This document shows positions 21,647 to 50,881 of a stretch of DNA of 64,000 nucleotides, piece after piece. This DNA comes from Natronococcus sp. A-GB7 (GTDB lineage Archaea > Halobacteriota > Halobacteria > Halobacteriales > Natrialbaceae), in assembly GCF_029688865.1 (NCBI RefSeq), contig NZ_JARUKV010000022.1, positions 1-64,000 of the forward strand, written 5' to 3'. Positions within the stretch are counted from its first letter, which is position 1, and each line of letters starts with the position of its first letter. The translations under genes and the position numbers were made by a program. The notes beneath the pieces were generated by a model. That model had not been told where the DNA came from. It ran no database searches and saw only the letters and a program-made list of their open reading frames with translations.

Positions 21647-21907
21647 CCGTCTCGTTCACCCCGGTTGATCCGGCGTTCGAGCCCCGTGCTTCCGTTCCCC
21701 TGTTCGATTCCGTGTCGCCTCACTCCGTCCTTTGTCATTATGAACGTCCCATGATCACATCTATCATAAGGTATAATAAATGGTTCTATTTATAATCTGA
21801 TTTGTATATGTCTGCAACAGGACATGAAACCCCGTCACCACCTCGACGGGGCCGAACGAGGAACGGTCGTCTGCTGAACAATACTGAAGTGCTACTCCTG
21901 GCTGACG

Positions 21908-24898: not shown

Positions 24899-25018
24899 TA
24901 CTCGTCCCTCAGGGATCGATTATGATAAATCCTGTGTCTGTCCTCCCCACGCAATCCGGTAAACACCCACACGAACTGGCGGTTCCCGCAAGGATTGCCT
25001 CTCGAGGGGGCCCGGCGA

Positions 25019-26374: not shown

Positions 26375-26502
26375 ACGTCCCAATGAACGGACCGCGGTAT
26401 GTAGCTTTCCTGGATCGGCCGCGGCTCCCGCGCCGCCACCGGTTATGCATTATTATTGGTGGTAAAAACAGCTTTACCGCACCGTACGATACATGATGAC
26501 AT

Positions 26503-30343: not shown

Positions 30344-31399
30344 CTAGAGACGGCTCCGGAGATCCTCGACCACGTCCTCGGTCCCGCTCGAGCCGCCCAG
30401 GTCGGGCGTTCGCGGGGCGTCCGCGTCGGCCAGCTGGTCGGTGACGGCGTCCCAGAGGGCGTCGCTGGCTTCCTCCTCGCCGAGGTAGTCGACCATCATC
30501 GCGCCGGAGAGGACCGTCGCGATCGGATTCGCGACGCCCTCACCGACGATGTCGGGGGCGCTGCCGTGGACGGGCTCGAACATCGAGGGATAGGCTCGGG
30601 TCGGATCGATGTTAGCCGAGGGTGCCAGCCCCATGCTGCCCGTAATGATCGCGCCGATATCGGTCAGAATGTCGCCGAAGAGGTTCGAGGCGACGACGAC
30701 GTCGAACTCCTCGGGACGGCGAATGAAGTCCATGCTCGCCGCGTCGACGAGCAGCCGTTCGACGGTGACGTCGGGATACTCCTCGCTTACCTCCTCGACG
30801 ATCTGATCCCAGAAGACCATACTGTGGGCCTGGGCGTTGGACTTCGTGATACTCGTCAGGTGGCCCTCCCGCTCGGTCGCCGCGTCGAAGGCAGCCCGAA
30901 CGATCCGTTCCGTTCCGGTTCGGGTGAAGACCGCGCTCTGGATGGCGACCTCGTGGTCGTGGCCGGGGTGTTCCTGGCCGCCCATGTTGGCGTACTCGCC
31001 CTCCGTGTTCTCCCGGTAGACGACGAACTCGATGTCGCCGCCGTCGTACCCCTCGAGTGGGCTCTCGACACCGTCGAAGAGGATCGCTGGCCGCTTGCAG
31101 ATGGACTGGTCGAACCCCTTGCGGATCGGGAGGAGAAGGTTGTTCAGCGTGACGTGGTCCGGGACGTCGGGATGACCGACCGCCCCCAGCAAGATTGCGT
31201 CGTACCCCTCGAGCTCCTCGAGGCCGTCCTCGGGCATCATCGCCCCCTCCTCGAGGTGTCGCTCGGTCCCCCAGTCGTACCGCGTTAGTGAGAGTTCGAA
31301 CCCGTGCTGTTCGGCGACGTCCTCGAACACCGGTCGAGCCGCATCGACGACCTCGGGACCGATACCGTCACCTGGAATACTCGCTATCTCGTATGCCAT
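30344..31399 (-). CDS. Tartrate/D-malate dehydrogenase-like enzyme (TtuC/DmlA)
   Basis: A 351-residue beta-decarboxylating dehydrogenase: N-terminal SIPGDGIGPEVVDAARPVFE, NNLLLPIRKGFDQSICKRP near 87-106 with GVESPLEGYDGGDIEF, catalytic RENTEGEYANMGG, Lys in SITKSNAQAHSMVFWDQI, VASNLFGDILTDIGAIITG, MFEPVHGSAPDI. The 'LLLPIRKGFDQ' loop is typical of tartrate dehydrogenase/decarboxylase and D-malate dehydrogenase, not of LeuB or isocitrate dehydrogenase. It would convert D-malate to pyruvate or tartrate to glycerate/oxaloglycolate with NAD. Placed a few kb from glycerate kinase. It lies convergent with the DUF296 gene, with a 53-nt gap. Confidence 0.85.
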   Translation of the reverse strand: MAYEIASIPGDGIGPEVVDAARPVFEDVAEQHGFELSLTRYDWGTERHLEEGAMMPEDGLEELEGYDAILLGAVGHPDVPDHVTLNNLLLPIRKGFDQSICKRPAILFDGVESPLEGYDGGDIEFVVYRENTEGEYANMGGQEHPGHDHEVAIQSAVFTRTGTERIVRAAFDAATEREGHLTSITKSNAQAHSMVFWDQIVEEVSEEYPDVTVERLLVDAASMDFIRRPEEFDVVVASNLFGDILTDIGAIITGSMGLAPSANIDPTRAYPSMFEPVHGSAPDIVGEGVANPIATVLSGAMMVDYLGEEEASDALWDAVTDQLADADAPRTPDLGGSSGTEDVVEDLRSRL

Positions 31400-32582: not shown

Positions 32583-33893
32583 ATGAGTACGCATACCGAC
32601 CGTCTTCACGACCGGAAGTTCGTGCGAACGTTCTTTACTACCCCGACTGCAGTGGAAGGAGAGGACGACTCCGCCAAGATGCTCCAGAGCGCATCGCAGC
32701 TTCGCGGCATGCAGGCGCCCGACGTCTGGGTCCCGGACAACGAGGACGCGACCGCGCCCTCGATGCGACCCGAGGGCGTCGAGAACATGATCGACGTGAT
32801 CTCGGAGGAAGGCGCCGACTTCCCCGGCGAGATCCACCCCCGCGTCGTCTGGCACCGCGAGAGCCCCGCGACGCGATACCAGGGCTTCCAGCAGATCCTG
32901 AAGCTCGCCGACCCCGAGAACGGCGCCATCGAGCACCTCGACGGCTTCGTGATTCCGGAGGTCGGCGACATCGACGACTGGAAGAAGGCCGACGAGTTCC
33001 TCACGATCGTCGAGAACGAGCACGACCTCGAGGAGGGGAGCCTGGCGATGTCGGTCATCGTCGAGAGCGGCGAGGCCGAGCTCGCGATGGGCGACCTCCG
33101 CGAGGAGATGGGCAAGCCGTCGAACAACCTCGAGCGCCTGTTCATGCTGGTCGACGGCGAGGTCGACTACACGAAGAGCATGCGCGCGATCACGCCTACC
33201 GGCGAGCTCCCGCCGTGGCCGGAGCTGCGACACAACACCTCCCGCGGCGCGAGCGCGGCCGGCCTGATCGCGGTCGACGGTCCCTACGACGACATCCGCG
33301 ACGTCGAGGGCTACCACGAGCGCATGACCGACAACCAGGCAAAGGGGATGCTCGGCATCTGGTCGCTGACCCCCGGCCAGGTCGTCGAGGCCAACAAGTC
33401 GCCGCTACCGCCGAAGAACGGCAGCTGGCAGCTCGAGGTCAACGACCGAACGATCGAGCTCGAGGAGGAGGACGGTCGCCACGTCTACAGCGGTAACGAG
33501 GTCGAACTCGAGGAGACGGGCGACGACCAGTACACGCTCCGCGTCGGCGGCGACGAGCTCGAGCTCGACGGCGAGGAGCTCTCCGAGGAGCTGCTCGACA
33601 TGACCTCCTACATCCCGAGCCTGGACGACATCGTCGACTCGATGGAGGAGTTCGAGGCGGCCAAGGAGGCCGGCAAGGGCGCCATCGCGATGGAGCGATC
33701 TGGCACCCTCGTCATCGACGGCGTCGAGGTCGAGGTCAGCAACGACCGCATGTGGGACGAGGCGACCTACCAGGCGGCCCAGACCCCGATCACGCTGTTC
33801 CAGGACGTCTACGAGAACCGTCCGGACCAGCACGAGGACCTCGAGGAGCTCTACGGCGAGGACCTCGTCGAGCGCGCGAGCCTCGTCGGATAG
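32583..33893 (+). CDS. aceB: Malate synthase, haloarchaeal type
   Basis: A 436-residue protein matching the haloarchaeal malate synthase class (related to the CitE/HpcH lyases rather than to bacterial isoforms A/G): RKFVRTFFTTPTAVEGEDDS, QAPDVWVPDNEDATAPSM, HPRVVWHRESPATRYQGF, FVIPEVGDIDDWKKADEF, MSVIVESGEAELAMGDLREE and SYIPSLDDIVDSMEEFEAAK. It condenses glyoxylate with acetyl-CoA to malate in the cytosol. No isocitrate lyase gene is next to it; glyoxylate may come from glycolate oxidation or the methylaspartate cycle. An IclR regulator gene lies downstream on the same strand. Confidence 0.92.
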   Translation: MSTHTDRLHDRKFVRTFFTTPTAVEGEDDSAKMLQSASQLRGMQAPDVWVPDNEDATAPSMRPEGVENMIDVISEEGADFPGEIHPRVVWHRESPATRYQGFQQILKLADPENGAIEHLDGFVIPEVGDIDDWKKADEFLTIVENEHDLEEGSLAMSVIVESGEAELAMGDLREEMGKPSNNLERLFMLVDGEVDYTKSMRAITPTGELPPWPELRHNTSRGASAAGLIAVDGPYDDIRDVEGYHERMTDNQAKGMLGIWSLTPGQVVEANKSPLPPKNGSWQLEVNDRTIELEEEDGRHVYSGNEVELEETGDDQYTLRVGGDELELDGEELSEELLDMTSYIPSLDDIVDSMEEFEAAKEAGKGAIAMERSGTLVIDGVEVEVSNDRMWDEATYQAAQTPITLFQDVYENRPDQHEDLEELYGEDLVERASLVG

Positions 33894-35227: not shown

Positions 35228-38194
35228 TTACGCGAGCGACGCCTCGAGTTTCGCGATCGGGTGGGGCGGTTTCTCGTCGTACTCGTCGCCGATCTGGGTT
35301 CTACAGGACGCTCCCGGAGCGACGACGCCGTCGCCGTCGCTCTCGTCGATCTGTCCGAACAGCTGCGTGCCGATCGCGCGGCTCATCGAGTAGTGTTCGG
35401 CCTCGTAGCCGAAGGAGCCGGCCATGCCACAACAGCTGCTGTCGAGCGGGTCGACGCCGTACCCCGCCCGCCGGAGGACGCCGACGGCGTGGTGGTCCTT
35501 CTTCGTCGCCTTCTGGTGGCAGTGGCCGTGGTAGGTCAGGCGTTCGTCGACGGGCCCGAACTCGAGGCGGTCGTCGAGTCGATGGACGTCGAGGTACTCG
35601 CAGACGCCGTAGGCGCTTTCGGCGACGTCGGTCACGTCGTGGCCGGTGACCAGATCGGGGTAGTCCGACTGGAACATGACCGCGTCGCTGGGCTCGCAGA
35701 CGACGACGTCCCAGCCGTTTCGAACCCTCGGGATCAGGGCGTTGACGTTCTGCTCGGCCTGCTCTCGGGCCGTCTCGAGGAAGCCTTTCGAGTAGGCGGG
35801 GCGGCCGCTGCTGGTGGTTCCGGACGGGAGGTCGACGTAGACGCCGGCGGCCTCGAGGAGCCGAACCGCGGCCTTGCCGATCTCGGGATCGTTGTACTCC
35901 GTGGTGACGTCCGGGAACAACAGGACCTTGTGGTCGGCCGTCTCCGGATCGACCGGCGACTCCCGGCTCTCGAACCAGTCGGTGAACGTCTCCCGGTGGA
36001 ACGTCGGCAGGGACCGCTCGCGGGCGATGCCGACGGTTTTTTCCATCACCATCCGGGCGCCCGGCAGCTTCGTCGCGTAGTTCGACAGCGGCGCGGTGGC
36101 GCTGCCGAGCTTCGAGAGGGTGTCGATGTTCGCGAACATGCGTTCACGGATCGAGGCGCCGTTGCGCTGGTGGTACTCGTGTTCGACCTCGACCTTGAGC
36201 TTCGCCATGTCGACCTCGCTCGGACAGTCCTTGGCACACCCCTTGCAGCCGATACAGAGGTCCATCACCTCGGTGACGAACTCGTCGGAGAACGCCTCGT
36301 CGGGCTCTAATTCGCCAGTCATCGCCTGACGAAGCATGTTCGCTCGCCCGCGAGTGCTCGTGATCTCTTCGTCGGCCGCCCGATAGGTCGGACACATCAC
36401 GCCACCTGTTCCTTCTTGGCTGGTCCGACAGCCGCCACAGCCGTGACAGAGTTCGACCATTCCCTGGAACCCGTTCTCGTTCTCCCAGTTCAGTGCGGGC
36501 TCGAAGCCGGCCTCGAACTCGCTGTCGGGGCCGAACCGGAGGTTCTCGGTCATATCGTGGTCGCCACAGACCGAGCCGGGATTGAGCAGCCAGTCGGGAT
36601 CGAACGCGGTCTTCAGGTCGCGAAAGACGTTCCAGATGTGGTCGCCGTACAGCTTCCGGTTCCACTGGGTCCGGGCGCGGCCGTCGCCGTGTTCGCCGGA
36701 GACGCTGCCGCCGTACTTCACCGCGAGGTCCGTCGCGCCGTCGGCGATCGCCTCCATCGTGTCGACCCCCTCGGCGGTTTTCGTGTTGACGAGCGGTCGG
36801 ACGTGCATACAGCCCGGCCCGGCGTGGGCGTAGAAGCTGCCGAACGTCCCGTTTTCCTCCATGACCTCCTGGAAGTCCGCGACGTACTCCGTGAGGTGCT
36901 CCGGCGGGATCGCGATGTCCTCGATAAAGGCGATGTGTTTCTCGTCGCCGGTCCGGGAGAGCAGGATCGGCGTCGAAGCCTTCCGCATCTTCCAGAGCCG
37001 CGACTGCTGTTTCTCGTCGTAGGCCGTCAGCGCGTCGAACGCGATCTCGCCCTCGCGGTCGTCGATCAGCGCCTCGACCAGTTCGCGGCCCTCCTCTTCG
37101 TCGTCGGCGTAGAACTCGACCAGCAGGAACGAACTGGTTCCCTCGGGGAGGATACCGACGACGTCGGCGAACTCCTCGGTGTTTCGCGCCAGGTCGAGCA
37201 GCACGTCGTCTAACACCTCGACCGCCGCGGGGTCGTGTTCGAGGATGTCCCCGACGTCGTCCATCGCATCGAGCAGACTGCGGTAACAAAGCACCGCGAC
37301 CGAGGTCGTGTTCGGGATCGTCTCGAGGGAGACCTCCGCCTCCGTGACGATCCCCAGGGTGCCCTCGCTGCCGACCAGCAGCCGCGCGAGGTTGACGGTT
37401 CCGCTCTTGGCCTCTTCGACGAGCATGTCCAGATTGTACCCGGAGACGTTCCGCTTGAGCGTCGGATAGGCCTCCTCGACCGCGTCGCTCTCCTCGTCGA
37501 CGATCCGAGCGACTTCGGCGTAGATTCGCTCGAGAAGCTCCCCCTCGGGATCGGCCCGCTCGCGCAGTTCCTCGAGGTCGATCTCGCCGAAGCGCTCGAC
37601 GGAGCCGTCGGCGAGGACGACCTCGCAGGACTCGACGTAAGCGTCTGTCTTACCGTACTTCAGCGAGTGCGCCCCGGTCGTGTTGTTCCCGATCGCACCC
37701 CCGAGGGCGCTTCGGTCGGCGGTCGACGGATCCGGAGCGAACTTGAGCCCGTGGGGCTCGAGGGTCCTGTTGAGTTCGCCGACAGTAATCCCAGCCTGGG
37801 CTCGGGCTCGTCGGGCATCGGGGTCGGTGTCGGTCACCGCGTTCATGTAGCGGGTGAAATCGAGGACGACGGCCTCGTTGACGGTCTGTCCGGCGAGGCT
37901 CGTTCCGCCGCCCCGGGGAAGCACTGGAATCTCGTGGTCCGCACAGTAGCGCATCACCGCGGCGACGTCGTCGGTCCCGGTCGGGTAGACGACGCCGATC
38001 GGCAGCATCTCGTAGGCGCTCGCGTCCGTCGCGTACAGTTCGCGAGAGTACTCGTCGAAGCGGACGTCGCCGTCGACCCGTCGCTCGAGCGCGTCGACGA
38101 GATCGATTCGTTCGGTCGTGTCGTTCTGGTAGTCGTACTCCGCGCGACGATCCGTCGCCGGGTCTCCGTCGATCGGTCTGTCGTGTGTAGCCAT
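35228..38194 (-). CDS. Second FAD/Fe-S D-2-hydroxyacid dehydrogenase (GlcD-GlcF fusion)
   Basis: A 988-residue paralogue of the gene at 21908-24898: FAD_binding_4 (RGGGTSLAGQTVNEAVVLDF near 95; SALGGAIGNNTTGAHSLKYG near 168), oxidase C-terminal domain, a first Cys cluster CHGCGGC near 579 with a longer loop before VMCPTY, CIGCKGCAKDCPSEVD near 648, CHQKATKKDHHAVGVLRRAG and DSSCCGMAGSFGYEAEHYSM near 918. The Cys-rich C-terminal half is very similar to the first copy, the N-terminal half less so, suggesting different substrates. The YdiJ-like layout implies membrane-linked oxidation of a D-2-hydroxyacid. Its regulator is probably the adjacent IclR. Confidence 0.88.
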   Translation of the reverse strand: MATHDRPIDGDPATDRRAEYDYQNDTTERIDLVDALERRVDGDVRFDEYSRELYATDASAYEMLPIGVVYPTGTDDVAAVMRYCADHEIPVLPRGGGTSLAGQTVNEAVVLDFTRYMNAVTDTDPDARRARAQAGITVGELNRTLEPHGLKFAPDPSTADRSALGGAIGNNTTGAHSLKYGKTDAYVESCEVVLADGSVERFGEIDLEELRERADPEGELLERIYAEVARIVDEESDAVEEAYPTLKRNVSGYNLDMLVEEAKSGTVNLARLLVGSEGTLGIVTEAEVSLETIPNTTSVAVLCYRSLLDAMDDVGDILEHDPAAVEVLDDVLLDLARNTEEFADVVGILPEGTSSFLLVEFYADDEEEGRELVEALIDDREGEIAFDALTAYDEKQQSRLWKMRKASTPILLSRTGDEKHIAFIEDIAIPPEHLTEYVADFQEVMEENGTFGSFYAHAGPGCMHVRPLVNTKTAEGVDTMEAIADGATDLAVKYGGSVSGEHGDGRARTQWNRKLYGDHIWNVFRDLKTAFDPDWLLNPGSVCGDHDMTENLRFGPDSEFEAGFEPALNWENENGFQGMVELCHGCGGCRTSQEGTGGVMCPTYRAADEEITSTRGRANMLRQAMTGELEPDEAFSDEFVTEVMDLCIGCKGCAKDCPSEVDMAKLKVEVEHEYHQRNGASIRERMFANIDTLSKLGSATAPLSNYATKLPGARMVMEKTVGIARERSLPTFHRETFTDWFESRESPVDPETADHKVLLFPDVTTEYNDPEIGKAAVRLLEAAGVYVDLPSGTTSSGRPAYSKGFLETAREQAEQNVNALIPRVRNGWDVVVCEPSDAVMFQSDYPDLVTGHDVTDVAESAYGVCEYLDVHRLDDRLEFGPVDERLTYHGHCHQKATKKDHHAVGVLRRAGYGVDPLDSSCCGMAGSFGYEAEHYSMSRAIGTQLFGQIDESDGDGVVAPGASCRTQIGDEYDEKPPHPIAKLEASLA

Positions 38195-38738: not shown

Positions 38739-39164
38739 CTACTCGCCGTCGTCCCCGACGGAGCCGTCCGTCGCTTCGTCCGCGGTCTCGAGCTGGTAGA
38801 CCGGATACCGCCCCTCCTGGGGCCAGCCGACCGCAGCGAGCTTACACGGCTCGTCGAACGGGTTGTAGACGAGGTGGGCGCCCGCCTTCCCCTCGTCGAA
38901 CGCGATGATATCGTCGGTCTCGAGCGTTACCGTCTCGTCGGTCGTCTCGGCGCGACAGGACCCAGAGACGACGTAGAACAGCTCCTTCTGGTTCTCGTGG
39001 TAGTGGAAGTGATTCTGCGAGAGTCGCTCGCCCGACTCGAGGACGGCGACGTTGAAGTTGAACGCCTCGACGCCGAGCGCCGGCGAGGCCTCCCACCGGC
39101 GTCCCGGTTTGTCGGGATTCGTCTCGAGCTCTTCGAGCGTGACGTGTTTCCAGCCGTCTTCCAT
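38739..39164 (-). CDS. Cupin-domain protein
   Basis: A 141-residue single cupin. The two metal motifs are visible: the first around QNHFHYHENQKELFYVVSG (H-x-H...E) and the second around IIAFDEGKAGAHLVYNPFDE. The start, MEDGWKHVTLEELE, is the usual cupin head. It may be a metal-dependent isomerase, dioxygenase or sugar/organic-acid sensor. It is 78 nt downstream of tctA on the same strand, as the last gene of a possible four-gene operon. Confidence 0.82.
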   Translation of the reverse strand: MEDGWKHVTLEELETNPDKPGRRWEASPALGVEAFNFNVAVLESGERLSQNHFHYHENQKELFYVVSGSCRAETTDETVTLETDDIIAFDEGKAGAHLVYNPFDEPCKLAAVGWPQEGRYPVYQLETADEATDGSVGDDGE

Positions 39165-39242: not shown

Positions 39243-40742
39243 TCAGTTCCTGCCGAGGGTTCGTTCGACCCGTCCCTTCAGGAAGGGGCCGAACAGGATC
39301 AGGAAGATCGCGACCGACAGCAGGAACGACAGCGGCTGGTTGATCGGATCGATGAAGATCGTGTAATCGCCGCCCGAGATCTGCAGCGACCGGAAGAAGT
39401 TCTCCTCGGCGATCGGGCCGAGCACGATCCCGAGCACGAACGCGATGATCGAGTAGTTGTTCCGGACCATGTAGAAGCCCAGAATCCCGAGCGCGATGAC
39501 GGCGCCGACGTCCCACCAGTTCTGGTTCAGCGTGTACGCGCCGGCGTACGAGAGCACGATGACCATCGGGATGATCAGGGTCGTATCGAGCTCGGTGATC
39601 TTACTCGCGTAGGGAATCAGCGTCAACCCGACGAGGAGGATGAGGATGTTGCCGAGGAACAGCGAGATAAACAGCGCGTACGTGATCTGAAGCTGTTCGC
39701 CGAAGAGGACGGGGCCGGGCTGGAGTCCGTGCATGAGGATCCCCCCGAGCAGGACTGCGGTCGATCCGCTGCCCGGAATGCCGAATGACAGCGTCGGAAT
39801 GAGCGATCCGCTGACGGTCGGGTTGTTCGCCGCTTCCGGTGCGATGACGCCACGGGGATCCCCGTCGCCGAACCGCCCATCCTTGGTCGAGGAGCGGGCC
39901 TCTTCGGCGTAGGCGACGAACGTCGACGTCGTCGCTCCGGAGCCGGGGACCATCCCGATACCCATTCCGATCAGCCCCGATTTGAGGGTCGTAACCGGAT
40001 ACTTGAATACCGTCGTGATCCCGTCGCGAACGCTGCCGGCGATCTCGACGTCGCCCTCGGAGATCTTCTTGCGGGCGGCGAGTTTCATCATCTCGGCGAA
40101 CGCGAACATCCCGATCAGTGCTGCGACGAAGTCGATTCCCTCGTAGAGTCCGAACTGGCCGAAGGTGTACCGCGGACGCGGACTGAGGATCGCGGTCCCA
40201 ATGGTCGAAATCATGAATCCGAGCGCGCCGGCGACCAGTCCCTTGACGATCGACCCCTGGGTGACGATCGTGATCAGGGAGATCCCGAGGATCGCCAGTA
40301 GGAAGTACTCCGGCGAGCCGAACGCCAGCACGACCTCGATCAGGATCGGCGAGAGGAGGATTAGTGCGATCGCGGCGAGAAAGCCGTTCAGCGCCGACGC
40401 CGTCGTCGCGATGGCGAGTGCGTTCTTCGCCAGCCCGTTCTGTGACATCGGATACCCGTCCAGTGTCGTCGCCGCGGCTGACTCGGTCCCAGGTGCGTTG
40501 ATCAGGATCGCCGCGATCGAGCCGCCGAACATCGCGCCGCTGTAGATCGCGACCAGCAGAATGATCGCCGCCGTCGCGTCGAGTGGCAGCGTCAGCGGCA
40601 GCACGATCGCCATTCCGACCGGTGACCCGATACCGGGGAGCGCTCCGAGGACGATCCCGAGGAGGAGTCCAAGCGCCAACCACATGATCATCTCGGGGGT
40701 CGTCGCGATCGACAACCCCTCGAAGAAGGCGTCGACCGCCAT
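39243..40742 (-). CDS. tctA: TctA-type large membrane subunit of a tripartite carboxylate transporter
   Basis: A 499-residue protein of about 12 helices. Diagnostic TctA blocks: LGALPGIGSPVGMAIVLPLT near 32-51, IYSGAMFGGSIAAILINAPG near 65, TTLDGYPMSQNGLAKNALAI, and GMGIGMVPGSGATTSTFVAY near 255. It forms the channel of the TTT (tripartite tricarboxylate/tartrate) system with TctB and the binding protein TctC. Start is directly after the tctB stop (no gap), so translation is coupled. Confidence 0.92.
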   Translation of the reverse strand: MAVDAFFEGLSIATTPEMIMWLALGLLLGIVLGALPGIGSPVGMAIVLPLTLPLDATAAIILLVAIYSGAMFGGSIAAILINAPGTESAAATTLDGYPMSQNGLAKNALAIATTASALNGFLAAIALILLSPILIEVVLAFGSPEYFLLAILGISLITIVTQGSIVKGLVAGALGFMISTIGTAILSPRPRYTFGQFGLYEGIDFVAALIGMFAFAEMMKLAARKKISEGDVEIAGSVRDGITTVFKYPVTTLKSGLIGMGIGMVPGSGATTSTFVAYAEEARSSTKDGRFGDGDPRGVIAPEAANNPTVSGSLIPTLSFGIPGSGSTAVLLGGILMHGLQPGPVLFGEQLQITYALFISLFLGNILILLVGLTLIPYASKITELDTTLIIPMVIVLSYAGAYTLNQNWWDVGAVIALGILGFYMVRNNYSIIAFVLGIVLGPIAEENFFRSLQISGGDYTIFIDPINQPLSFLLSVAIFLILFGPFLKGRVERTLGRN

Positions 40743-41387
40743 CTACAGCCCACCTCTCAGGAGTATCGGCGCACCGTCGAACAGCATCGGCACGAGCGGA
40801 CTGAAGTCGAAGAGGTGTCCCTGGTCGAACGGCAACACGAGATACGTCATGAACAGGTAGATGACGGCCGTTCCCGCGACGGCCAGCCCGACGCTGACGA
40901 CGGGATTGACGCGGAACCAGAGGGTGTATCCCGCGATATACAGCGGTGTAACGAACAGGAAGCCCGCGGCCCACCCCGCGACGAAGTACAACACCGCCGT
41001 CGAGACCATGAATATCGTCTCGTCTACTTCGAACCCGTACTTCGCACCGAGCGTGTCCTTTTTGTACTCTTCCGCTTCCGGTTCGGTATCCTCGAGTTGC
41101 TCCTGGTCCGTCTCGGTCTGGTCGACCACCTCCGAGTCCTCGGAGCTAGTGATGCTGACGCTCTCGGCGACGAACCGCCGAACGGGTCCCGGGAGGTAGT
41201 TCTGCAGTAACAACAACAGCGAGCCGATAAAAACGGCCGCCGCGGTTAGCTGAGGAAACACGCGAGCGTCGTCCGGGTAGCTCTCGATCACCGGCTCGAT
41301 AATAAACACCGCGCTCACGACGAGGAACGTAACGAGCATTATTCGCTCCGGCGTTACTTTCCTCTTAATTGACTCTGAATTACTCAT
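40743..41387 (-). CDS. tctB: TctB-type small membrane subunit
   Basis: A 214-residue protein with four helices (IMLVTFLVVSAVFIIEPVIE, LTAAAVFIGSLLLLLQNYLP, VDETIFMVSTAVLYFVAGWA with VTPLYIAGYTLWFRVNPVVS, and LAVAGTAVIYLFMTYLVLPF) and an acidic loop of about 50 residues (STSITSSEDSEVVDQTETDQ region). This layout is that of TctB, which holds the membrane complex together. Between tctC (26-nt gap) and tctA (0-nt gap). Confidence 0.85.
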   Translation of the reverse strand: MSNSESIKRKVTPERIMLVTFLVVSAVFIIEPVIESYPDDARVFPQLTAAAVFIGSLLLLLQNYLPGPVRRFVAESVSITSSEDSEVVDQTETDQEQLEDTEPEAEEYKKDTLGAKYGFEVDETIFMVSTAVLYFVAGWAAGFLFVTPLYIAGYTLWFRVNPVVSVGLAVAGTAVIYLFMTYLVLPFDQGHLFDFSPLVPMLFDGAPILLRGGL

Positions 41388-41412: not shown

Positions 41413-42483
41413 TTACGAGTGCTCTTCGATCAGATCGACGATCTCTAGCTCCTCCATCTCCTCGAACGCGTCGTCGATCGACGCGTTCGCCTCCTCGGGA
41501 CCTTCGTAGAAGATCGGGTTTCCGGTATCATCCGACCACTCCTCGTACCGTTCGTCCTGAGTCGCCTCTTCGACCCGCTCGGTCAGTTCCTGGATGACGC
41601 CGTCGGGCGTATCCGGCGGGGCGTACAGGCCCCGGGTAACGCCGGAGATGAAGTCCATATCCGGATACCCCTCGTCGGTCACCGACGGGATGTCGGGGTA
41701 CACCTCCGTCCCCTCGCTCCAGAACGTACAGACCGGGTAGACGCCGCCTGCGGAGACGTCCGGCTCCGTCCCCGCGTCCGTTCCGATCCCGCAAGGAACC
41801 TCGCCGGAGGTCACCGCCTCAGCGATCGGGCCGGTACCCGTGTACTGGACCCGATCCTCCCACTGCCAGTCGTACTCCTCGGCGTACCCCTCACCGTGTT
41901 TCGCCAGCAGGGTCATGATGTCCTGCGGACTGCCGGGCTCCTGGATACCGATCGAATTCCACTCGCCGGAGTTGTGCATCTCGCGGACGTCCTCGAACGT
42001 TTCGACCTCGCCCTCGTACTCCTCGTTGACGATCAGACACCACGTCGAGCGACCGATGTTCGCGATTCCCTCGAGCTCGCGCTGATCGAAGCCGGGGTCG
42101 TCGAGCATCTGTGGCGGCACCTCGAGCGGGGTTGCGCTCCCAGCGATCGTGTGTCCGTCGGGATCAGAGCCGTACAGTTCACCGAACCCGTTCAGACCGC
42201 CGCCGCCGGGAACGTTGTCGACCTGGATATCCTGATCCATCGCGTCGGTAAGCGATTCGACGATCCCGCGAGCGTAGACGTCAGTGCCACCGCCCTCGTC
42301 GTACGGCACGATGTATCGGATCGTTTCAGCGGGCTCCCAGTCCTCGTCGTCCCCCGCGTCGGGGTCGTCGTCCTGTAGACAGCCAGCCATCGATACGGCA
42401 GCTCCCGCACCAGCAATCCCGAGGAACCCTCGCCTGGTCGTTGCCTCCACCGTCAAACGTCGTTGAGTTGGTTTTTCGGACAT
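41413..42483 (-). CDS. tctC: TctC-type solute-binding lipoprotein
   Basis: A 356-residue Bug/TctC binding protein with a Tat signal (RR at 17-18 in TTRRGFLGIAG) and lipobox Cys35 (SMAGCLQ). The mature part begins with an acidic linker, then YIVPYDEGGGTDVYARGIVE near 65, VDNVPGGGGLNGFGELYGSD near 95 and the ASKGHTV-like DPDGHTIAGSATPLEV. These are the typical carboxylate-binding loops of the family (citrate, tartrate or other dicarboxylates; not predictable). First gene of tctCBA-cupin. Confidence 0.9.
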   Translation of the reverse strand: MSEKPTQRRLTVEATTRRGFLGIAGAGAAVSMAGCLQDDDPDAGDDEDWEPAETIRYIVPYDEGGGTDVYARGIVESLTDAMDQDIQVDNVPGGGGLNGFGELYGSDPDGHTIAGSATPLEVPPQMLDDPGFDQRELEGIANIGRSTWCLIVNEEYEGEVETFEDVREMHNSGEWNSIGIQEPGSPQDIMTLLAKHGEGYAEEYDWQWEDRVQYTGTGPIAEAVTSGEVPCGIGTDAGTEPDVSAGGVYPVCTFWSEGTEVYPDIPSVTDEGYPDMDFISGVTRGLYAPPDTPDGVIQELTERVEEATQDERYEEWSDDTGNPIFYEGPEEANASIDDAFEEMEELEIVDLIEEHS

Positions 42484-42720
42484 ACGTATCGACCACAGAC
42501 CCTGGAATTCGTTACACGACTCCGTGAGTCAGGGTCACACTACCATGATCAAACAGTACAGATATAAAGCTTTCTCTTGTGTTGGGGCTTGATCTGTACA
42601 TAATACAAAAATGAACAAATTTAATGTTAGATTTAATATCTAAGGGGTCGTCCGATCGTGGCTACGAGTTGCCCGACCCTGCGAGTAACTGATTTATGGG
42701 TGGAGGCCGTCGTCGGATCC

Positions 42721-43149
42721 ATGACCGTCGTTGCAGCGATCGATCGTTCCGACAGGGCCGCCGCCATCATCACTGAAGCACACCGACTCGGCGAGGCGTT
42801 CGGCGAATCGGTCGAGGTCGTCCACGTTCTCACCCGCGACGAGTTCGTCTCGCTCGAGCGAACGAACGTCAGCGAGACGGGGGGGACGGTACCGGTAGAC
42901 AACGTCGTCGAGATCGCCGAAGAGATCGCCGCGGAGGCGATCGAGGACGCCGGTGTCGAGGCGACCCCGGTCGGACTCCTCGGAGATCCGGCAGACGAAG
43001 TCGCCAGCTACGCCGACGGGGAGGAAGCGAGCTACCTGGTCGTCGCGGGACGCAACCGCTCGCCGGTCGGGAAGGCGCTGTTCGGGAGCGTCGCTCAATC
43101 GATCCTGCTGGACGCCTCGACGCCGGTCGTCTCCCTTCGAGCCGAGTGA
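42721..43149 (+). CDS. Universal stress protein (UspA family)
   Basis: From the ATG at 42721 (MTVVAAIDRSDRAAAI), 142 residues. ATP-binding C-terminal signature GRNRSPVGKALFGSVAQSIL, ending CPVV-like DASTPVVSLRAE. The DxS start (AAIDRSD) and the middle VGLLGDPADEVASYADGEEA fit UspA proteins. The upstream in-frame start at 42658 has no support. Divergent from tctC, with AT-rich DNA between (42545-42650). Role in stress or nutrient adaptation is general. Confidence 0.9.
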   Translation: MTVVAAIDRSDRAAAIITEAHRLGEAFGESVEVVHVLTRDEFVSLERTNVSETGGTVPVDNVVEIAEEIAAEAIEDAGVEATPVGLLGDPADEVASYADGEEASYLVVAGRNRSPVGKALFGSVAQSILLDASTPVVSLRAE

Positions 43150-43174
43150 GTCGGAGCGACCGGCGCCGTAATAC

Positions 43175-43184
43175 AAAATTTTTT
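43175..43184 (+). promoter_or_regulatory. TATA-like tract of the crotonase-CoA-transferase operon
   Basis: AAAATTTTTT lies about 30 nt before the ATG at 43210. Confidence 0.4.
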
Positions 43185-43209
43185 GCGAGAGACCCACTAA
43201 CGGGGTGGT

Positions 43210-43995
43210 ATGGTTAGCTACAGCGCCTACGAAAGTATCACCCTCGACGTCGACAACGGAGTGGCGACGATCGAGTTTCACCGCCCCGAGGTCTACAACG
43301 CGCTCAACAACGAGGTCATGCTCGACCTCAGCCGCGCGTTCGACGAGATCCAGCTGAACCGCGACATCGACGTCGTCGTGATCACCGGCGAGGGCGAGGA
43401 CGCGTTCTCCGCGGGCGCGGATATCTCCCAGTACGCCGGAACCGCAGACGAGCACGATCCGCTCCAGCGGGACCGCCAGGAGCTGTTCTACGAGATGTAC
43501 CAGAAACCGTACGACTGCCACGCGCCGGTGATCGCGAAGATCAACGGCTACTGCGTCGGCGGCGGGCTGATCTTCGCGATGTACTGCGATCTGCGGATCG
43601 CCGTCGACGACGCGAAGTTCGGCGTCCCGACGGCGAACATCGGTCAGATACCCACCGGCGGCTCGACCTGGCGGGCGGTCGAGCTGGTCGGCGAGGCGAA
43701 GGCGAAGGAGCTCGTCTACACCGCGGGGATGATCGACGCCGACGAGGCCGAGCGGATCGGGCTGGTCAACCACGCCGTCCCGCGCGAAGAGTTAGACGAG
43801 ACCGTCGACGGGATCGTCGACGGAATCCAGGACACCGGTCGCGGGGCGGTCAAGAACTCCAAACGCGCGATCAACGGCGCGGTACGTGCGGGGAGCCTCG
43901 CGGGGGCACGTGAACAGGAGGCCGAGATCTGGTGGGAGCAGTTCGCCACCGACGAACGCCGCGAGCTGGTCGACGAGTTCAACGAGGGCCAATGA
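43210..43995 (+). CDS. Crotonase-family protein without the hydratase glutamates
   Basis: A 261-residue enoyl-CoA hydratase/isomerase-fold protein: EFHRPEVYNALNNEVMLDLS, oxyanion-hole SAGADISQY near 67, NGYCVGGGLIFAMYCDLRIA near 112, AKFGVPTANIGQIPTGGSTW near 135. Aligned with mitochondrial enoyl-CoA hydratase, the two catalytic Glu (E144, E164 of the rat enzyme) fall on Ile121 and Thr141, so ordinary water addition to enoyl-CoA is unlikely. It may be an isomerase, decarboxylase or CoA-ester carrier step. Its TGA overlaps the ATG of the CoA-transferase gene (ATGA), so both act together. Confidence 0.85.
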   Translation: MVSYSAYESITLDVDNGVATIEFHRPEVYNALNNEVMLDLSRAFDEIQLNRDIDVVVITGEGEDAFSAGADISQYAGTADEHDPLQRDRQELFYEMYQKPYDCHAPVIAKINGYCVGGGLIFAMYCDLRIAVDDAKFGVPTANIGQIPTGGSTWRAVELVGEAKAKELVYTAGMIDADEAERIGLVNHAVPREELDETVDGIVDGIQDTGRGAVKNSKRAINGAVRAGSLAGAREQEAEIWWEQFATDERRELVDEFNEGQ

Positions 43996-45188
43996 CCGAA
44001 GGACCGCTTTCCGGCGTCTCGGTCGTCGAGATGACCGGCCACCGCGCGGGGCCGTTCTGTGGCGCGTTGCTCGCCGACATGGGCGCAGACGTCGTGAAGA
44101 TCGAACGACCGGGCGTCGGCGATCCCGCCCGGTCCCAGGGGATCGGTCCCGACGGTAAGTCGGGGTACTTCATGGCGAACAACCGCAACAAGCGCTCGGT
44201 CACGCTCGATCTCAAGACCGACGCGGGAACGGAAGCAGCCCGGGAGCTGATCGCCAGCGCGGACGTCTTCGTCGAGAACTTCGGCTACGGCGTCACCGAC
44301 AAGCTCGGCATCGGCTACGACGAGATCAGCGACCGCAACCCCGGGATCGTCTACGCGAGCATCAAGGGGTACGGCGAGACCGGTCCCAAGCGAGAGCAGC
44401 CGGGACTCGACCTCATCCTCCAGGCCGAGGGCGGGATCATGAGCGTCACCGGGCCCGAGGGCGGCGAGCCCGTCAAGGTCGGCCAGGCCATCGGCGACCT
44501 CACTACGGGGATGTTCGCCGCGATGGGCGTCCTCGCACGACTCTACGAGCGCGAACACGTCGGGGATTCCGACGCGTTCGTCGGCAAGTTCGACGTCGGT
44601 CTGTTCGACTCGATCGTCACCCTGCTCAACGAGTATCTCACCGAGTACTCGATGGACGGTTCCGTTCCCGGCCCGCAGGGCGTAACCCACCAGACGTTGG
44701 TGCCCTACCAGCGCTTCGAGACCGCCGACGGCGCCATCGTCACCGGCGTCCCCAGCGACGACCGCTGGGACGACTTCGTCGATCTCGTCGGGGTGGAGGA
44801 ACTCGGAGAGTACCCGACCAACGACGACCGCCAGGACAACGCCGAGCGCGTAACGGAGCTGATCCAGGCCGCTCTCGAGGAACGCTCCACCGAACACTGG
44901 CTCGAGCAGCTGACGGACGCGAACTTCCCCTGCGGTCCGATCAACGACGTGGCCGACGTCGTCGCGGACGAGCAGACGAGCGCCCGGAACCTCGTCGTCG
45001 ACCACGAAGACCCCGACTGGGGTGAGTGCCTGCTTCCGGGCCACCCCATCAACTATCCCGACTACGACGCCGTCGTGCGCACGCCGGCGCCGCGGCTCGG
45101 TGAGCACACCGAAGAGGTGTTCGACGAGGTCGCGGGCGACCAGACGACCCTCGAGCAGTGGAGCGAGGACGGCGCGTTCGGCAACTAA
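43992..45188 (+). CDS. Class III CoA-transferase (CaiB/BaiF)
   Basis: A 398-residue protein from the overlapping ATG at 43992. Family landmarks: LSGVSVVEMTGHRAGPFCGA, LLADMGADVVKIERPGVGD, NNRNKRSVTLDLKTDAGTEA, VENFGYGVTDKLGIGYDE and the catalytic Asp169 in GQAIGDLTTGM, the position of D169 in CaiB and formyl-CoA transferase. It should move CoA from one acid to another without ATP. Substrate unknown; the crotonase partner suggests a small branched or hydroxylated acid. Confidence 0.9.
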   Translation: MTEGPLSGVSVVEMTGHRAGPFCGALLADMGADVVKIERPGVGDPARSQGIGPDGKSGYFMANNRNKRSVTLDLKTDAGTEAARELIASADVFVENFGYGVTDKLGIGYDEISDRNPGIVYASIKGYGETGPKREQPGLDLILQAEGGIMSVTGPEGGEPVKVGQAIGDLTTGMFAAMGVLARLYEREHVGDSDAFVGKFDVGLFDSIVTLLNEYLTEYSMDGSVPGPQGVTHQTLVPYQRFETADGAIVTGVPSDDRWDDFVDLVGVEELGEYPTNDDRQDNAERVTELIQAALEERSTEHWLEQLTDANFPCGPINDVADVVADEQTSARNLVVDHEDPDWGECLLPGHPINYPDYDAVVRTPAPRLGEHTEEVFDEVAGDQTTLEQWSEDGAFGN

Positions 45189-47069: not shown

Positions 47070-48320
47070 CTAACCCGACAACGCTCCCTTCCGTCGAAGT
47101 TCCTCGATCTCCGCCTCGGAGTAGCCAAGCGCCCGGACGACGGCCTCGGTGTCCTCGCCGAGCAGCGGCGGCGCCTCGTCGAACCCGCTCTCGGACTCGG
47201 CGTAGTTCAACGGGTGCTCGAGGATCGGGATCTCGCCGGCCGCGGGGTGAGAGAGGCTGTCGACCGCGCCGCGCGCGTTGACCTGTTCGTTGTCCAGCGC
47301 CTCGTCGACGCTGTAGACCGGTCCGACCGGCAGGCCGGCGTCGTCGGCGAGGCGTTCGACCCACTCGTCGGTCGAACGCTCGGTGAGCGTTTCGGCGAGT
47401 TCCTCCTCGAGGGCGTCCATGTTCTCGACCCTATCGGCGTTGGACTCGAAGCGGGGATCCGAGGCGAGGTCCTCGCGGCCGATCTCCGCACAGAACTGCT
47501 CCCACAGCTTCTGGTTTCCGCAGGCGACGTTCAGGTAGCCGTCGGCCGTCGGATAGCTCTGGTAGGGCGCGAGGACGGGATCCTTCGTTCCCATCCTGGT
47601 CGGCTCGTCGCCGACGAACGCCTTCGCGGCCTGTTTCGTCAACCAGGGCAGCGCCGCGTCGAGCATCCCGAGTTCGACGCGTTCGCCCTCACCGGTTCGC
47701 TCGCGCCGGTAGAGCGCGTTGACGATCCCGAACGCGGACCACATCGCGGTGATCAGATCCGTCTGCGGGAGGCCGACCTTGACGGGGTCGCCGCCCTCGG
47801 GCCCGGTGACGCTCATCATCCCGCTCATCCCCTGGATCAGCAGATCGTAGCCGGGACGGTCGCTCCAGGGCCCCGAGTCGCCGAACGCGGAGATCGAACA
47901 GTAGACGAGTTCGGGGTGGTCCTCGGAGAGTTCGTCGTAGCCGAGGCCGAGCCGTTCGGCCGTTCCCGGCCTGAAGTTCTCGACGACGACGTCGGCTTCG
48001 TCGATCAGCTCCCGACAGATCTCGTACCCCTCCTCGGATTTGAGGTTCAGTTCGACGCTCTTCTTGTCGTAGTTGACCGTCCAGAAGTACGGTGACTCGC
48101 CGTGTTCGGACGCCGCCCGTCCCTCCCCCTCGTAGTCGGAGATATCGACGAACGGCGGTCCCGAGTGACGGCTGTCGTCGCCTACCTCCGGCCGTTCGAT
48201 CTTGATCACCTCAGCGCCCTGGTTCGCGAGCATCAGCGTCGCGAACCCGCCGGTTACGAACGTCGTCAGATCGACTACGGTGATATCATCGAGGATCCCA
48301 CGGCTAGCTCTGGCTCCCAT
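47070..48320 (-). CDS. Second class III CoA-transferase (CaiB/BaiF)
   Basis: A 416-residue paralogue: LDDITVVDLTTFVTGGFATL, LANQGAEVIKIERPEVGDDS, WTVNYDKKSVELNLKSEEGY, VENFRPGTAERLGLGYDEL, and catalytic Asp188 in VGLPQTDLITAM. It starts 42 nt after the stop of the MFS transporter gene. A loop of about 20 residues near 57-77 (SDYEGEGRAASEHGES) is longer than in the first copy, so the substrates probably differ. Confidence 0.9.
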   Translation of the reverse strand: MGARASRGILDDITVVDLTTFVTGGFATLMLANQGAEVIKIERPEVGDDSRHSGPPFVDISDYEGEGRAASEHGESPYFWTVNYDKKSVELNLKSEEGYEICRELIDEADVVVENFRPGTAERLGLGYDELSEDHPELVYCSISAFGDSGPWSDRPGYDLLIQGMSGMMSVTGPEGGDPVKVGLPQTDLITAMWSAFGIVNALYRRERTGEGERVELGMLDAALPWLTKQAAKAFVGDEPTRMGTKDPVLAPYQSYPTADGYLNVACGNQKLWEQFCAEIGREDLASDPRFESNADRVENMDALEEELAETLTERSTDEWVERLADDAGLPVGPVYSVDEALDNEQVNARGAVDSLSHPAAGEIPILEHPLNYAESESGFDEAPPLLGEDTEAVVRALGYSEAEIEELRRKGALSG

Positions 48321-48362: not shown

Positions 48363-49598
48363 TTACTCATTCCCACTGTACAGCGTAAACAAGACGAGGA
48401 CGATCCCCGCGCCGACGAGCGCGAGTGCACCGAGCGTTCCGAGAAGGATCGTCTCGCTCGCGTAGGTGAGCAGGGAGCCGGCGAGTGCGGCACCCGCCGC
48501 GCCGAAGCCGAACATCCCGAGGTAGGCGTAGCCGTAGGAGAGGCCATGGACGTCGGCGGCCGCGTACTCGGCGATCACCACCTGGTAGATCGGCGCCGTC
48601 GCATAGAGGAAAAAGCCGAGTGCGGCACAGACGAGCAGGAACGGAGCGAGCCCCCAGCCGACGGAGGGGATGAAGACGAACGCGAGCACGCCGAGTGCGA
48701 ACAGCGTCGAGAAGAACGCGTACTCCGTCCGAACGTGGTCGGTGACCCGACCGCCGGCGTACTGCCCCAGAATGCCGATCATCAGGATCCCCGTGTAGAT
48801 GTACTGTGCGGGCTCGGCCTCCTGGCCAAATATTTCGTAGGTGCCGAACTGCGGCAGTCCCCCGATCATGTCGGGCAGGAACGTGAGCAGGCCGCGATAG
48901 TAGATTCCGTAGATCATGATCGCAGCGAACGTGAGCAGGAACCCGGTCGTGAGCAGCAGCTTCGAGTCGTCGACGATCGACTGAAGATCCATCGACGACC
49001 CGTCGTCGTCGGTGTCGTCAGTTCCCCCGTCAGCTGCGGTCGCGGCGTTCTCGTTGAACTCGATCAGCGAGCCGAACGCGACGACGGCGACGGCCGGGAC
49101 GGTGAGCGCGACGACGACGAGCCGCCAGTCGAAAAAGAGGAGCAGTGACGCGGTCAACAACGGGCCGAACGCGGTCCCGATGTTGCCGCCGACGCCGTGG
49201 TAGGCGAACACTGTTCCGCGATTTTTCGCGCCACGGCTGATCAGCGACAGACCGGCGGGGTGGTAGACGCTCGCGGCGACGCCCCAGATGACGATTGCTA
49301 CCATCAGCACGTAGACGTTCGGGGCGAGCGCGAGGAGGAAGAAGCCGCCGCCCATCCCGACCACCGATGCGACGATCAGCCGACGCGAGCCGTAGATGTC
49401 CGAGAGCAGTCCGCTCGGGATCGCACCGACGCCGATGAGGCCGTAACCGATACTGACGACGATTCCGAGGACGAACGGCGAGACGTCGAAGACGTCCAAC
49501 CAGATGACGATAAAGATGGGGATACTCAACTCGTAGGTGTGAAAGATGCCGTGTGCGAGCATCGTAAACCCCGTAATCGAGCGATCGTTCTCATCCAT
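48363..49598 (-). CDS. MFS transporter
   Basis: A 411-residue major-facilitator protein with 12 helices and a charged central loop at about 185-210 (TAADGGTDDTDDDGSS). Motif A-like SGLLSDIYGSRRLIVASVVG near 62-82 and GGRVTDHVRTEYAF in the second half. N-terminal IFHTYELSIPIFIVIWLDVF. Substrate not predictable; the first place in an operon with a CoA-transferase and a ThDP enzyme points to an organic acid. Confidence 0.88.
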   Translation of the reverse strand: MDENDRSITGFTMLAHGIFHTYELSIPIFIVIWLDVFDVSPFVLGIVVSIGYGLIGVGAIPSGLLSDIYGSRRLIVASVVGMGGGFFLLALAPNVYVLMVAIVIWGVAASVYHPAGLSLISRGAKNRGTVFAYHGVGGNIGTAFGPLLTASLLLFFDWRLVVVALTVPAVAVVAFGSLIEFNENAATAADGGTDDTDDDGSSMDLQSIVDDSKLLLTTGFLLTFAAIMIYGIYYRGLLTFLPDMIGGLPQFGTYEIFGQEAEPAQYIYTGILMIGILGQYAGGRVTDHVRTEYAFFSTLFALGVLAFVFIPSVGWGLAPFLLVCAALGFFLYATAPIYQVVIAEYAAADVHGLSYGYAYLGMFGFGAAGAALAGSLLTYASETILLGTLGALALVGAGIVLVLFTLYSGNE

Positions 49599-50113
49599 CG
49601 CCGTTCACCACTTCCTTCCAGCGAGAGGACGAACCTGGCATGACATAACGGAGCGTGTCGGATCTACTTAACCGATTCCCTGTGGCGTTCGCTCTCGAGC
49701 AGGGCGTACTGGCGTAGTCTGTCCCAATTATTCGGATAGGCCGGAAGAAGGCTCGGAGCAGCTGTATGGAGGGTGTGACGACGGTTATATAGATATCAAA
49801 CGCCAATATAGCATCCGAGCAACCGGGATACAGACGGAGAACGCCAGAGAGTGCCGAACGAGGCCACTTCACACGTCCGACCGCTGACCCCCCGATACGA
49901 TTACGAAAGTACGGATGTAATTCCGTAGTACAGCCCCGATCTCGGATGATAATATATGGGAGTTATCTCGGAAGACGGCCGAAACGAGAGTCCCTATTCA
50001 CGAAGCAAGCATCGCTAATCCCGTTCCGTAGGATCTGGAGGGAGACCGGTCCTGGAGACCCATCTCCGCAAAGAAAGGCATAATTTATAATGTCCCGGTC
50101 CCCAGGATCGAGT
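49599..50113. other. Interval of 515 nt between divergent MFS and IclR genes
   Basis: Shared promoter region. AT-rich tracts at 49785-49815 and 49940-49965. Two minus-strand frames here look like chance. No gene is seen. Confidence 0.45.
50084..50090 (+). promoter_or_regulatory. TATA-like box of the second IclR gene
   Basis: TTTATAA lies about 27 nt before the ATG at 50114, fixing this start over the ATG at 50090. Confidence 0.5.
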
Positions 50114-50881
50114 ATGGCAAACAAACCCAAATCGGGGGCACGCACGACCGAGACCTCCATACGGATCATCGACGCGCTCCGGAAGCTGGGGGAGGCGACG
50201 ATCCACGAACTATCCGAACATCTCGGACTCGCTCCGAGCACCGTACATCGTCACCTCGTTACGCTCCGCGAGCACAGCTACGTGGTGTGTACGGACGGGC
50301 GCTACCGGATCGGGTTCCAGTTTCTCACCATCGGCGGTCACGCCCAGCGGACGACGACCGCGTACCCGATGATCAAACAGAAGGTCGACGCGCTCGCGGC
50401 GGAGACCGGAGAGCGCGCCCAGTTTATCGTCGAAGAACACGGCGAGCGAGTCTATCTGTACACCGAGGTCGGCCAGAGCGCGGTGCAGACCGGCGCCCAC
50501 ATCGGAAAGCGCGGCCCGCTTCACACGAGTGCCGCGGGAAAGGCGATCCTCGCGAACATGCCCACAGACCGCGTCGACGAAATCGTCGCGACCCACGGGC
50601 TACAGGGCGTGAGCGAGAACACCATCACGACGCGTGCGGAACTCGAGGAGGAGTGCGAACGGATCCGAGAGCGCGGGTACGCCTTCAACAGGCAGGAAAC
50701 GACGGAGGGGGTTCACGCGGTCGGCGCGGCGGTGACGGACGCCGACGACGAGGTGATCGGCGCGCTGAGCGTCTCCGGACCCGCCCACCGCGTCAAGGGA
50801 GCGCAGCTCACCGACGAGCTTCCGGAGCGGGTGCTCGGTGCAGTCAACGAACTCGAACTCCACATCGCTCACTCGATCTAG
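50114..50881 (+). CDS. IclR-family transcriptional regulator
   Basis: From the ATG at 50114 (MANKPKSGAR), 255 residues. wHTH: SIRIIDALRKLGEATIHELS, HLGLAPSTVHRHLVTLREHS. Effector domain: ETGERAQFIVEEHGERVYLY, IGKRGPLHTSAAGKAILANM, DEVIGALSVSGPAHRVKGAQ. It stands between the MFS-CoA-transferase-ThDP operon and the thiolase-DUF35 operon and probably controls one or both. It has the same domain layout as the IclR at 34465 but differs clearly in sequence. Confidence 0.92.
   Translation: MANKPKSGARTTETSIRIIDALRKLGEATIHELSEHLGLAPSTVHRHLVTLREHSYVVCTDGRYRIGFQFLTIGGHAQRTTTAYPMIKQKVDALAAETGERAQFIVEEHGERVYLYTEVGQSAVQTGAHIGKRGPLHTSAAGKAILANMPTDRVDEIVATHGLQGVSENTITTRAELEEECERIRERGYAFNRQETTEGVHAVGAAVTDADDEVIGALSVSGPAHRVKGAQLTDELPERVLGAVNELELHIAHSI

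Follow-up and report, generated by a model that had tools for sequence, protein, structure and literature searches.

The two catalytic glutamates of crotonase-type hydratases correspond to Glu144 and Glu164 of the rat hydratase. In DmdD, the two catalytic residues are numbered Glu121 and Glu141 (PMC3660561). PksI/CurF are described as using a crotonase fold to decarboxylate a dicarboxylic thioester (PMC7501309), and E. coli ScpB, a methylmalonyl-CoA decarboxylase of the crotonase superfamily, is encoded by a gene that adjoins the CoA-transferase gene scpC, as in the gene pair described here. The Variovorax thiodipropionate cluster, which carries crotonases (PMC6370202), serves as an analogy only. 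A mesaconate CoA-transferase and hydratase from haloarchaea were obtained in active form by expression in Haloferax volcanii, whereas E. coli gave insoluble protein (PMC5592240). Among the matches listed in a search of the open-licence literature (titles and the starts of abstracts), we recognised no publication on the haloarchaeal crotonase considered below, and the annotated records of the clade inspected here name its members enoyl-CoA hydratase/isomerase family proteins.

We analyzed a 64,000-nucleotide stretch of DNA from Natronococcus sp. A-GB7 (NZ_JARUKV010000022.1), referred to here as the window. On its + strand, positions 43210 to 43995 encode a 261-residue crotonase-fold protein (PF00378, E = 2.1e-56), which places it in the crotonase (ECH) superfamily by sequence; its nearest named relatives belong to Natronococcus, with 97% identity in N. 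amylolyticus. A 398-residue class III (CaiB/Frc) CoA-transferase follows on the same strand at 43992 to 45188, identified by PF02515 (E = 9.1e-116) and by Asp169 in a GDLTTG motif. The first-pass annotation had named this Asp as catalytic, and in an alignment it coincides with the Asp of class III transferases of solved structure. The two genes are joined by an ATGA overlap, also recognized in that annotation, in which the transferase ATG (43992-43994) lies on the crotonase TGA (43993-43995). By eye, a T/A-rich stretch is visible some 25-35 nt upstream of the crotonase start codon (within 43149-43215), and could be the TATA box of a leaderless transcript.

In the earlier reading of this locus, Ile121 and Thr141 of the crotonase take the places of the glutamate pair of hydratases. 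Alignment with solved hydratases and with E. coli CaiD, PaaF, PaaG, MenB and ScpB gave the same placement, with residue positions mapped by sequence alignment rather than from model coordinates. The oxyanion-hole residues, said to be intact, are present in the GAD block (A70) and the GGG block (G118). Pro148 and Thr149 stand where E. coli MenB and PaaG, respectively, carry Asp; we take these positions to be the Asp site of MenB/BadI-type enzymes and the acid site of PaaG-type isomerases. An AlphaFold2 model of the protein has a pLDDT of 90.7, with lower values in loop 71-90 (block means 76 and 71). Of the PDB structures, 5z7r, a crotonase from Clostridium acetobutylicum, matches it best (Z 35.1, rmsd 1.4 over 253 residues, 36% identity). 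The structure search returned hydratase-like folds, and the predicted fold does not by itself fix the reaction.

A scan of genome contigs returned 35 loci, 13 of them archaeal at 78-97% identity and 22 bacterial at 30-39%. Twelve of the archaeal loci are titled as haloarchaea and one as a Euryarchaeota MAG. At E <= 1e-60, matches were found in 40 of 391 genomes of the class, representing 15 of 86 genera. A tblastn search of plasmids recovered nine haloarchaeal records with at least 46% identity, with the next record at 40.6%. One haloarchaeal match (L120, 1.9e-61) retains both glutamates and was excluded from the clade. Six loci (L091-L096) encode divergent clade members at about 46-56% identity, and a similarity search for island genes near them found none except weak ABC-ATPase matches at 26-28%.

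We counted residues in 51 distinct haloarchaeal proteins of this clade, including the window crotonase. Position 121 is Ile in 44, Val in six and Thr in one; position 141 is Thr in 38 and Val in 13; position 148 is Pro in every protein; and position 149 is Thr in 43, Gly in seven and Ser in one. Other acidic residues in the same positions would have counted against the earlier reading, but the aligned positions 121, 141, 148 and 149 are free of acids in all 51. None of these proteins has the two catalytic glutamates of an enoyl-CoA hydratase, the acid at 149 of a PaaG-type isomerase or the Asp at 148 of MenB/BadI. Tyr75, Arg89, Trp241 and Gln244 are invariant (51/51), Trp242 is found in 50 and His82 in 49. 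Because the 51 proteins agree, and because dN is below dS in all eight pairings of the window crotonase with relatives, the loss of the glutamates is no sequencing accident; the agreement of the 51 likewise rules out chance. The absence of both glutamates is a trait of the clade.

A phylogeny within the superfamily had been suggested as a check, and the clade has a support of 100/100 in both trees that we built. The second tree was built without five long sequences (Ec_ScpB, L043, L010, L012 and L013) and without L113 and L114, and with 10 of the 28 other clade sequences that the first had contained. It places the clade next to haloarchaeal hydratases that retain both glutamates, with weak support (88/87).

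To set these residues in context, we aligned 47 other crotonases, of which 16 are bacterial hydratases found with the clade profile (L123-L138) and 31 are further crotonases. Both hydratase glutamates are missing from 10 of the 47, E. coli PaaG and MenB included, which rules out that their absence is remarkable in itself. Among 11 aligned paralogs from the Natronococcus genome, eight have both glutamates and three have neither; three further matches in this genome (L011, L014 and L015) lie outside that alignment, of which L014 looks MenB-like and L015 has the L008 gene as its best match. Not one of the 47 has Tyr75, Trp242 or Gln244. Arg89 and Trp241 had appeared distinctive as well in the set of 31, where Arg89 occurs once and Trp241 never. 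This was overturned by the 16 bacterial hydratases, most of which have both residues: 12 or 14 of them carry Arg89, depending on which of two alignments is used, and 14 carry Trp241. Unlike the clade, all 16 retain both glutamates, and none has Tyr75, Trp242 or Gln244. Arg89 is therefore no mark of new chemistry. The aligned sequences suggest that the clade branched off within the hydratases, keeping Arg89 and acquiring Tyr75 and Gln244 while both acids disappeared.

We looked for bacterial members of the clade in three genome samples. A search of 200 genomes from the phylum of a Burkholderiales bin (E <= 1e-58), run without a positive control, was empty; 246 genomes from the phylum of a Microthrixaceae bin (E <= 1e-55) gave four matches; and 250 genomes from the order of the Burkholderiales bin, a sample overlapping the other bacterial ones, gave 14 matches in 11 genomes. 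Sixteen of the 18 bacterial matches were recovered as loci, and no clade member was among them, as all 16 have both glutamates.

These comparisons bear on two alternatives. The protein might be an enoyl-CoA isomerase, a racemase or a hydratase working through other residues, such as Tyr75, His82, a water or the substrate carboxylate. The position of the clade among hydratases with both glutamates, the Arg89 and Trp241 that it shares with most of the 16, the closeness of the model to hydratase structures and the near-invariance of His82 are all consistent with such an enzyme. Against it stand the lack of any acid at the four active-site positions and the MaoC-type gene of four annotated relatives (below), and we consider it unlikely. 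A thioester hydrolase, a BadI/MenB-like retro-Claisen hydrolase or an enzyme of some other enolate reaction is suggested by E. coli MenB and the two bacterial proteins in its group (L113 and L114), which also do without both glutamates. All three, however, have Asp at the place of Pro148, which is Pro throughout the clade, and this alternative is slightly less probable again.

We next considered the link to the CoA-transferase, counted in 53 distinct clade proteins, some on short loci. A CoA-transferase lies within 300 nt downstream of the crotonase in 35 of the 53, with an ATGA overlap in 14, and a transferase match lies within 8 kb in 43. No match was found nearby for the remaining 10, some of whose loci are short. 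The idea that crotonase and transferase form a working pair is thus backed by most loci and unsupported in these 10, and obligate coupling is ruled out by the 18 of 53 that have no such gene within 300 nt downstream. At L085, L086 and L088, a D-2-hydroxyacid dehydrogenase takes the place of the transferase after the crotonase. The overlapping genes, together with the loss of catalytic residues, could also mean that the crotonase is a paralog without catalytic activity, retained to partner or scaffold the transferase. The retained oxyanion-hole blocks and invariant residues, and the same 18 proteins without an adjoining transferase, make this very unlikely. For the window transferase itself, the best solved match is succinate-hydroxymethylglutarate CoA-transferase, and the best NCBIfam models are those of succinyl-CoA:mesaconate and succinate-glutarate transferases, both below cutoff. 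The top match is the succinyl-CoA:mesaconate model NF041294, likewise of class III, at 288.5 bits; its equivalog cutoff of 700 is far higher.

The pair lies in an island of organic-acid genes. Upstream of the crotonase are a UspA-family gene (42658-43149, + strand) and, on the - strand, the genes of a tripartite tricarboxylate transporter: a TctC-type substrate-binding protein (41413-42483), a TctB-family subunit (40743-41387) and the TctA permease subunit (39243-40742). Beyond these are a cupin-domain protein (38739-39164, - strand); an FAD-linked oxidase of the 2-hydroxyacid dehydrogenase type, fused to an Fe-S/CCG domain (35228-38194, - strand); a gene without a Pfam match that we name malate synthase AceB (32583-33893, + strand) after an annotated N. 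occultus gene to which it is 95.6% identical over 436 residues; and a protein of the tartrate-dehydrogenase/isopropylmalate-dehydrogenase family (30344-31399, - strand), which is found beside the crotonase in several relatives. Downstream of the pair, the - strand carries a thiamine-pyrophosphate (TPP) enzyme matching NCBIfam PRK06154 (45254-46864), a second class III CoA-transferase (47070-48320) and an MFS transporter (48363-49598), followed by an IclR-family regulator on the + strand (50090-50881). The TPP enzyme adjoins the second transferase, and its best solved relatives include BbmA, oxalyl-CoA decarboxylases, 2-hydroxyacyl-CoA lyases and acetolactate synthases. Further away, at 19877-28764, we noted an L-lactate permease and a malic enzyme with a PTA domain, with a second FAD/Fe-S oxidase (21908-24898) and a glycerate-2-kinase-like gene (25019-26383) among them; the island seems to extend there into other 2-hydroxyacid metabolism. 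No MaoC, acyl-CoA dehydrogenase or MmgE/PrpD gene was found among the 30 ORFs scanned in the window's own cluster.

Much of this island recurs in the 13 close loci, whose limited flanks make all gene counts lower bounds. The transferase follows the crotonase in all 13 (in L026 after a gap of about 270 nt). At least one tripartite-transporter gene is present in at least 12, the TPP enzyme in at least nine, the second CoA-transferase in at least eight (one of them a fragment) and the tartrate-dehydrogenase-like gene in at least seven; the UspA-family and FAD-linked oxidase genes each occur in at least 11. An annotated N. occultus plasmid has the same island, malate synthase AceB included. Tartrate was considered as the substrate and not adopted: the window's dehydrogenase scores 466.5 bits on the tartrate dehydrogenase model TIGR02089, just below the cutoff of 470.4, and the surroundings at other loci suggest C5 dicarboxylates or tricarboxylates. 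A Halomarina homolog of this dehydrogenase scores 471.2 on the same model.

More distant relatives show other surroundings. In five plasmid loci of Halomarina, Haladaptatus and Halorussus, the crotonase occurs with MmgE/PrpD, a mandelate-racemase-like enzyme and an isocitrate/isopropylmalate-type dehydrogenase (in Halomarina, tartrate dehydrogenase), and four of the five also have an ADP-forming-type ligase, an acyl-CoA dehydrogenase and MaoC beside it. The four annotated relatives with MaoC in the gene run carry CoA-transferases as well. Their MaoC-type gene is another candidate for hydration; the one scanned, from Haladaptatus halobius (L103), scores best with NCBIfam RipB/Ich, at 174.3 bits against a cutoff of 340. 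Two haloarchaeal loci (L090:6657-13709 and L119:7178-11692) have an aconitase gene on one side of the crotonase and a citrate synthase gene on the other. These genes are preceded in L090 by PrpF and an acyl-CoA dehydrogenase, and a methylcitrate-cycle lyase was not seen among the genes scanned nearby. In two other haloarchaea (L097:2399-16655 and L105:4671-18244), the genes accompanying the crotonase and a CoA-transferase are TctA-C, an AMP ligase, DUF6282 and a CO-dehydrogenase-like set (CoxE, CoxG, FAD and 2Fe-2S subunits). Taken together, the gene neighborhoods point to short di- or tricarboxylic acids, presumably handled as CoA esters.

Such surroundings would suit a retro-aldol lyase that, in place of a CitE-like lyase, yields a 2-oxo acid and an acyl-CoA from a 3-hydroxy dicarboxylyl-CoA (the malyl-, citramalyl-, methylmalyl- or citryl-CoA type). 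The four annotated relatives have the gene kinds of bacterial itaconate/methylsuccinate clusters (PMC12290011), with no lyase in their feature tables; two relatives sit between aconitase and citrate synthase genes; and the island includes malate synthase. However, a retro-aldol reaction requires a base for the 3-hydroxyl, and the positions that face this group in hydratases are Ile/Val/Thr and Thr/Val. In addition, the Natronococcus genome has five HpcH/HpaI-type matches of its own, none of them inside the window, and the PLSDB gene tables used for the plasmids are incomplete. A retro-aldol lyase fits the gene neighborhood better than decarboxylation does but has no evident base, and we regard it as improbable, though the foremost of the alternatives.

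The reading that we prefer, at a probability of about 0.29, is that of a non-hydratase crotonase that acts on a short dicarboxylyl-CoA supplied by the transferase, with C–C cleavage led by decarboxylation. The class III transferase would move CoA from an acyl-CoA, such as succinyl-CoA, to a short dicarboxylic acid that the neighboring tripartite transporter takes up. The crotonase would then bind the dicarboxylyl-CoA, with Arg89 and the clade-specific Tyr75 holding the free carboxylate and the thioester polarized in the intact oxyanion hole. Breakage of the C–C bond next to C-alpha could give an acyl-CoA enolate without a glutamate base, and the acyl-CoA product may pass its CoA to the next acid, so that no ATP would be needed. 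We infer the dicarboxylate substrate, the roles of Arg89 and Tyr75, and C–C cleavage with its version. Decarboxylation of a malonyl-type thioester would be the likeliest version, with retro-aldol cleavage second, because it requires no base and has relatives in ScpB/ScpC and PksI/CurF.

Several features argue for this reading. The wall beside C-alpha and C-beta, free of acids at all four positions, is mostly hydrophobic; Tyr75 and Gln244 are invariant in the clade and absent from the 47 other crotonases; the transferase matches are of dicarboxylate types, and TctABC adjoins the pair; and a MaoC-type gene is available in the same run of the four annotated relatives. Other observations weigh against it. 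Arg89 and Trp241 also occur outside the clade, and 10 of the 53 proteins have no transferase match nearby. For decarboxylation in particular, no malonate-specific gene was seen, and the gene kinds near the plasmid-borne relatives recall C5-dicarboxylate pathways that require a lyase instead. The finding of Arg89 and Trp241 in bacterial hydratases lowered our estimate for the preferred reading from 0.32, and made an isomerase or hydratase slightly more probable than before. It also slightly lowered a wider proposal that we hold with a little less conviction: that the clade is a subfamily descended from hydratases and now without their acid/base glutamates, in which Arg89 as carboxylate anchor and an added Tyr75 (with Trp242 and Gln244) might serve the cleavage of dicarboxylyl-CoA. 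This cleavage, whether a decarboxylation or a retro-aldol reaction, would complete a transferase cycle in an uncharacterised di- or tricarboxylate pathway and substitute for a CitE-like lyase or a malonyl-type decarboxylase.

The first-pass annotation had concluded that the pair probably performs a reaction other than hydration. The part of this claim that stands is that the crotonase is not an ordinary hydratase, given its acid-free positions and the clade-specific Tyr75, Trp242 and Gln244; for the pair as a whole, a reaction other than hydration is plausible. If true, the name hydratase/isomerase misleads, a haloarchaeal catabolic pathway for an organic acid remains to be found, and the superfamily would gain a reaction that requires no carboxylate base; candidate substrates could be tested with the conserved residues and the linked transporter and CoA-transferase as guides. 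If wrong, the clade crotonase only adds to the divergent hydratases.

Set beside known systems, the window crotonase resembles the clostridial short-chain hydratase (C. acetobutylicum 5z7r; NCBIfam PRK05809) in its predicted fold and oxyanion-hole blocks, but has Ile121 and Thr141 for the two glutamates and scores 194.7 on that model against a cutoff of 394. E. coli MenB and PaaG, like the clade, do without both hydratase glutamates; their Asp lies at 148 (MenB) or 149 (PaaG), where the window protein has Pro and Thr. PksI depends on a C-terminal His (His230; PMC7501309), whereas the window crotonase has Trp241, Trp242 and Gln244 in that region and no His in its last 45 residues; PksI itself lay outside the alignment, in which 11 of the 29 A3 members have a His there. 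E. coli ScpB has Glu, Pro and Tyr at 121, 141 and 148, unlike the clade; its branch is very long (3.21), which leaves its place in the tree unsure, and the likeness of ScpC to the transferase is one of gene adjacency. As far as tested, the particular residues of PksI/CurF and ScpB are not shared by the clade. The itaconate/methylsuccinate cluster of pseudomonads and Cupriavidus (PMC12290011) has the same CoA-transferase, MaoC-type, acyl-CoA dehydrogenase and MmgE/PrpD kinds as the Haladaptatus and Halorussus loci, whose feature tables, drawn from incomplete PLSDB gene tables, list no citramalyl-CoA lyase gene; relative to that cluster, these loci add the crotonase. The haloarchaeal clade is a new subfamily within the known crotonase superfamily.
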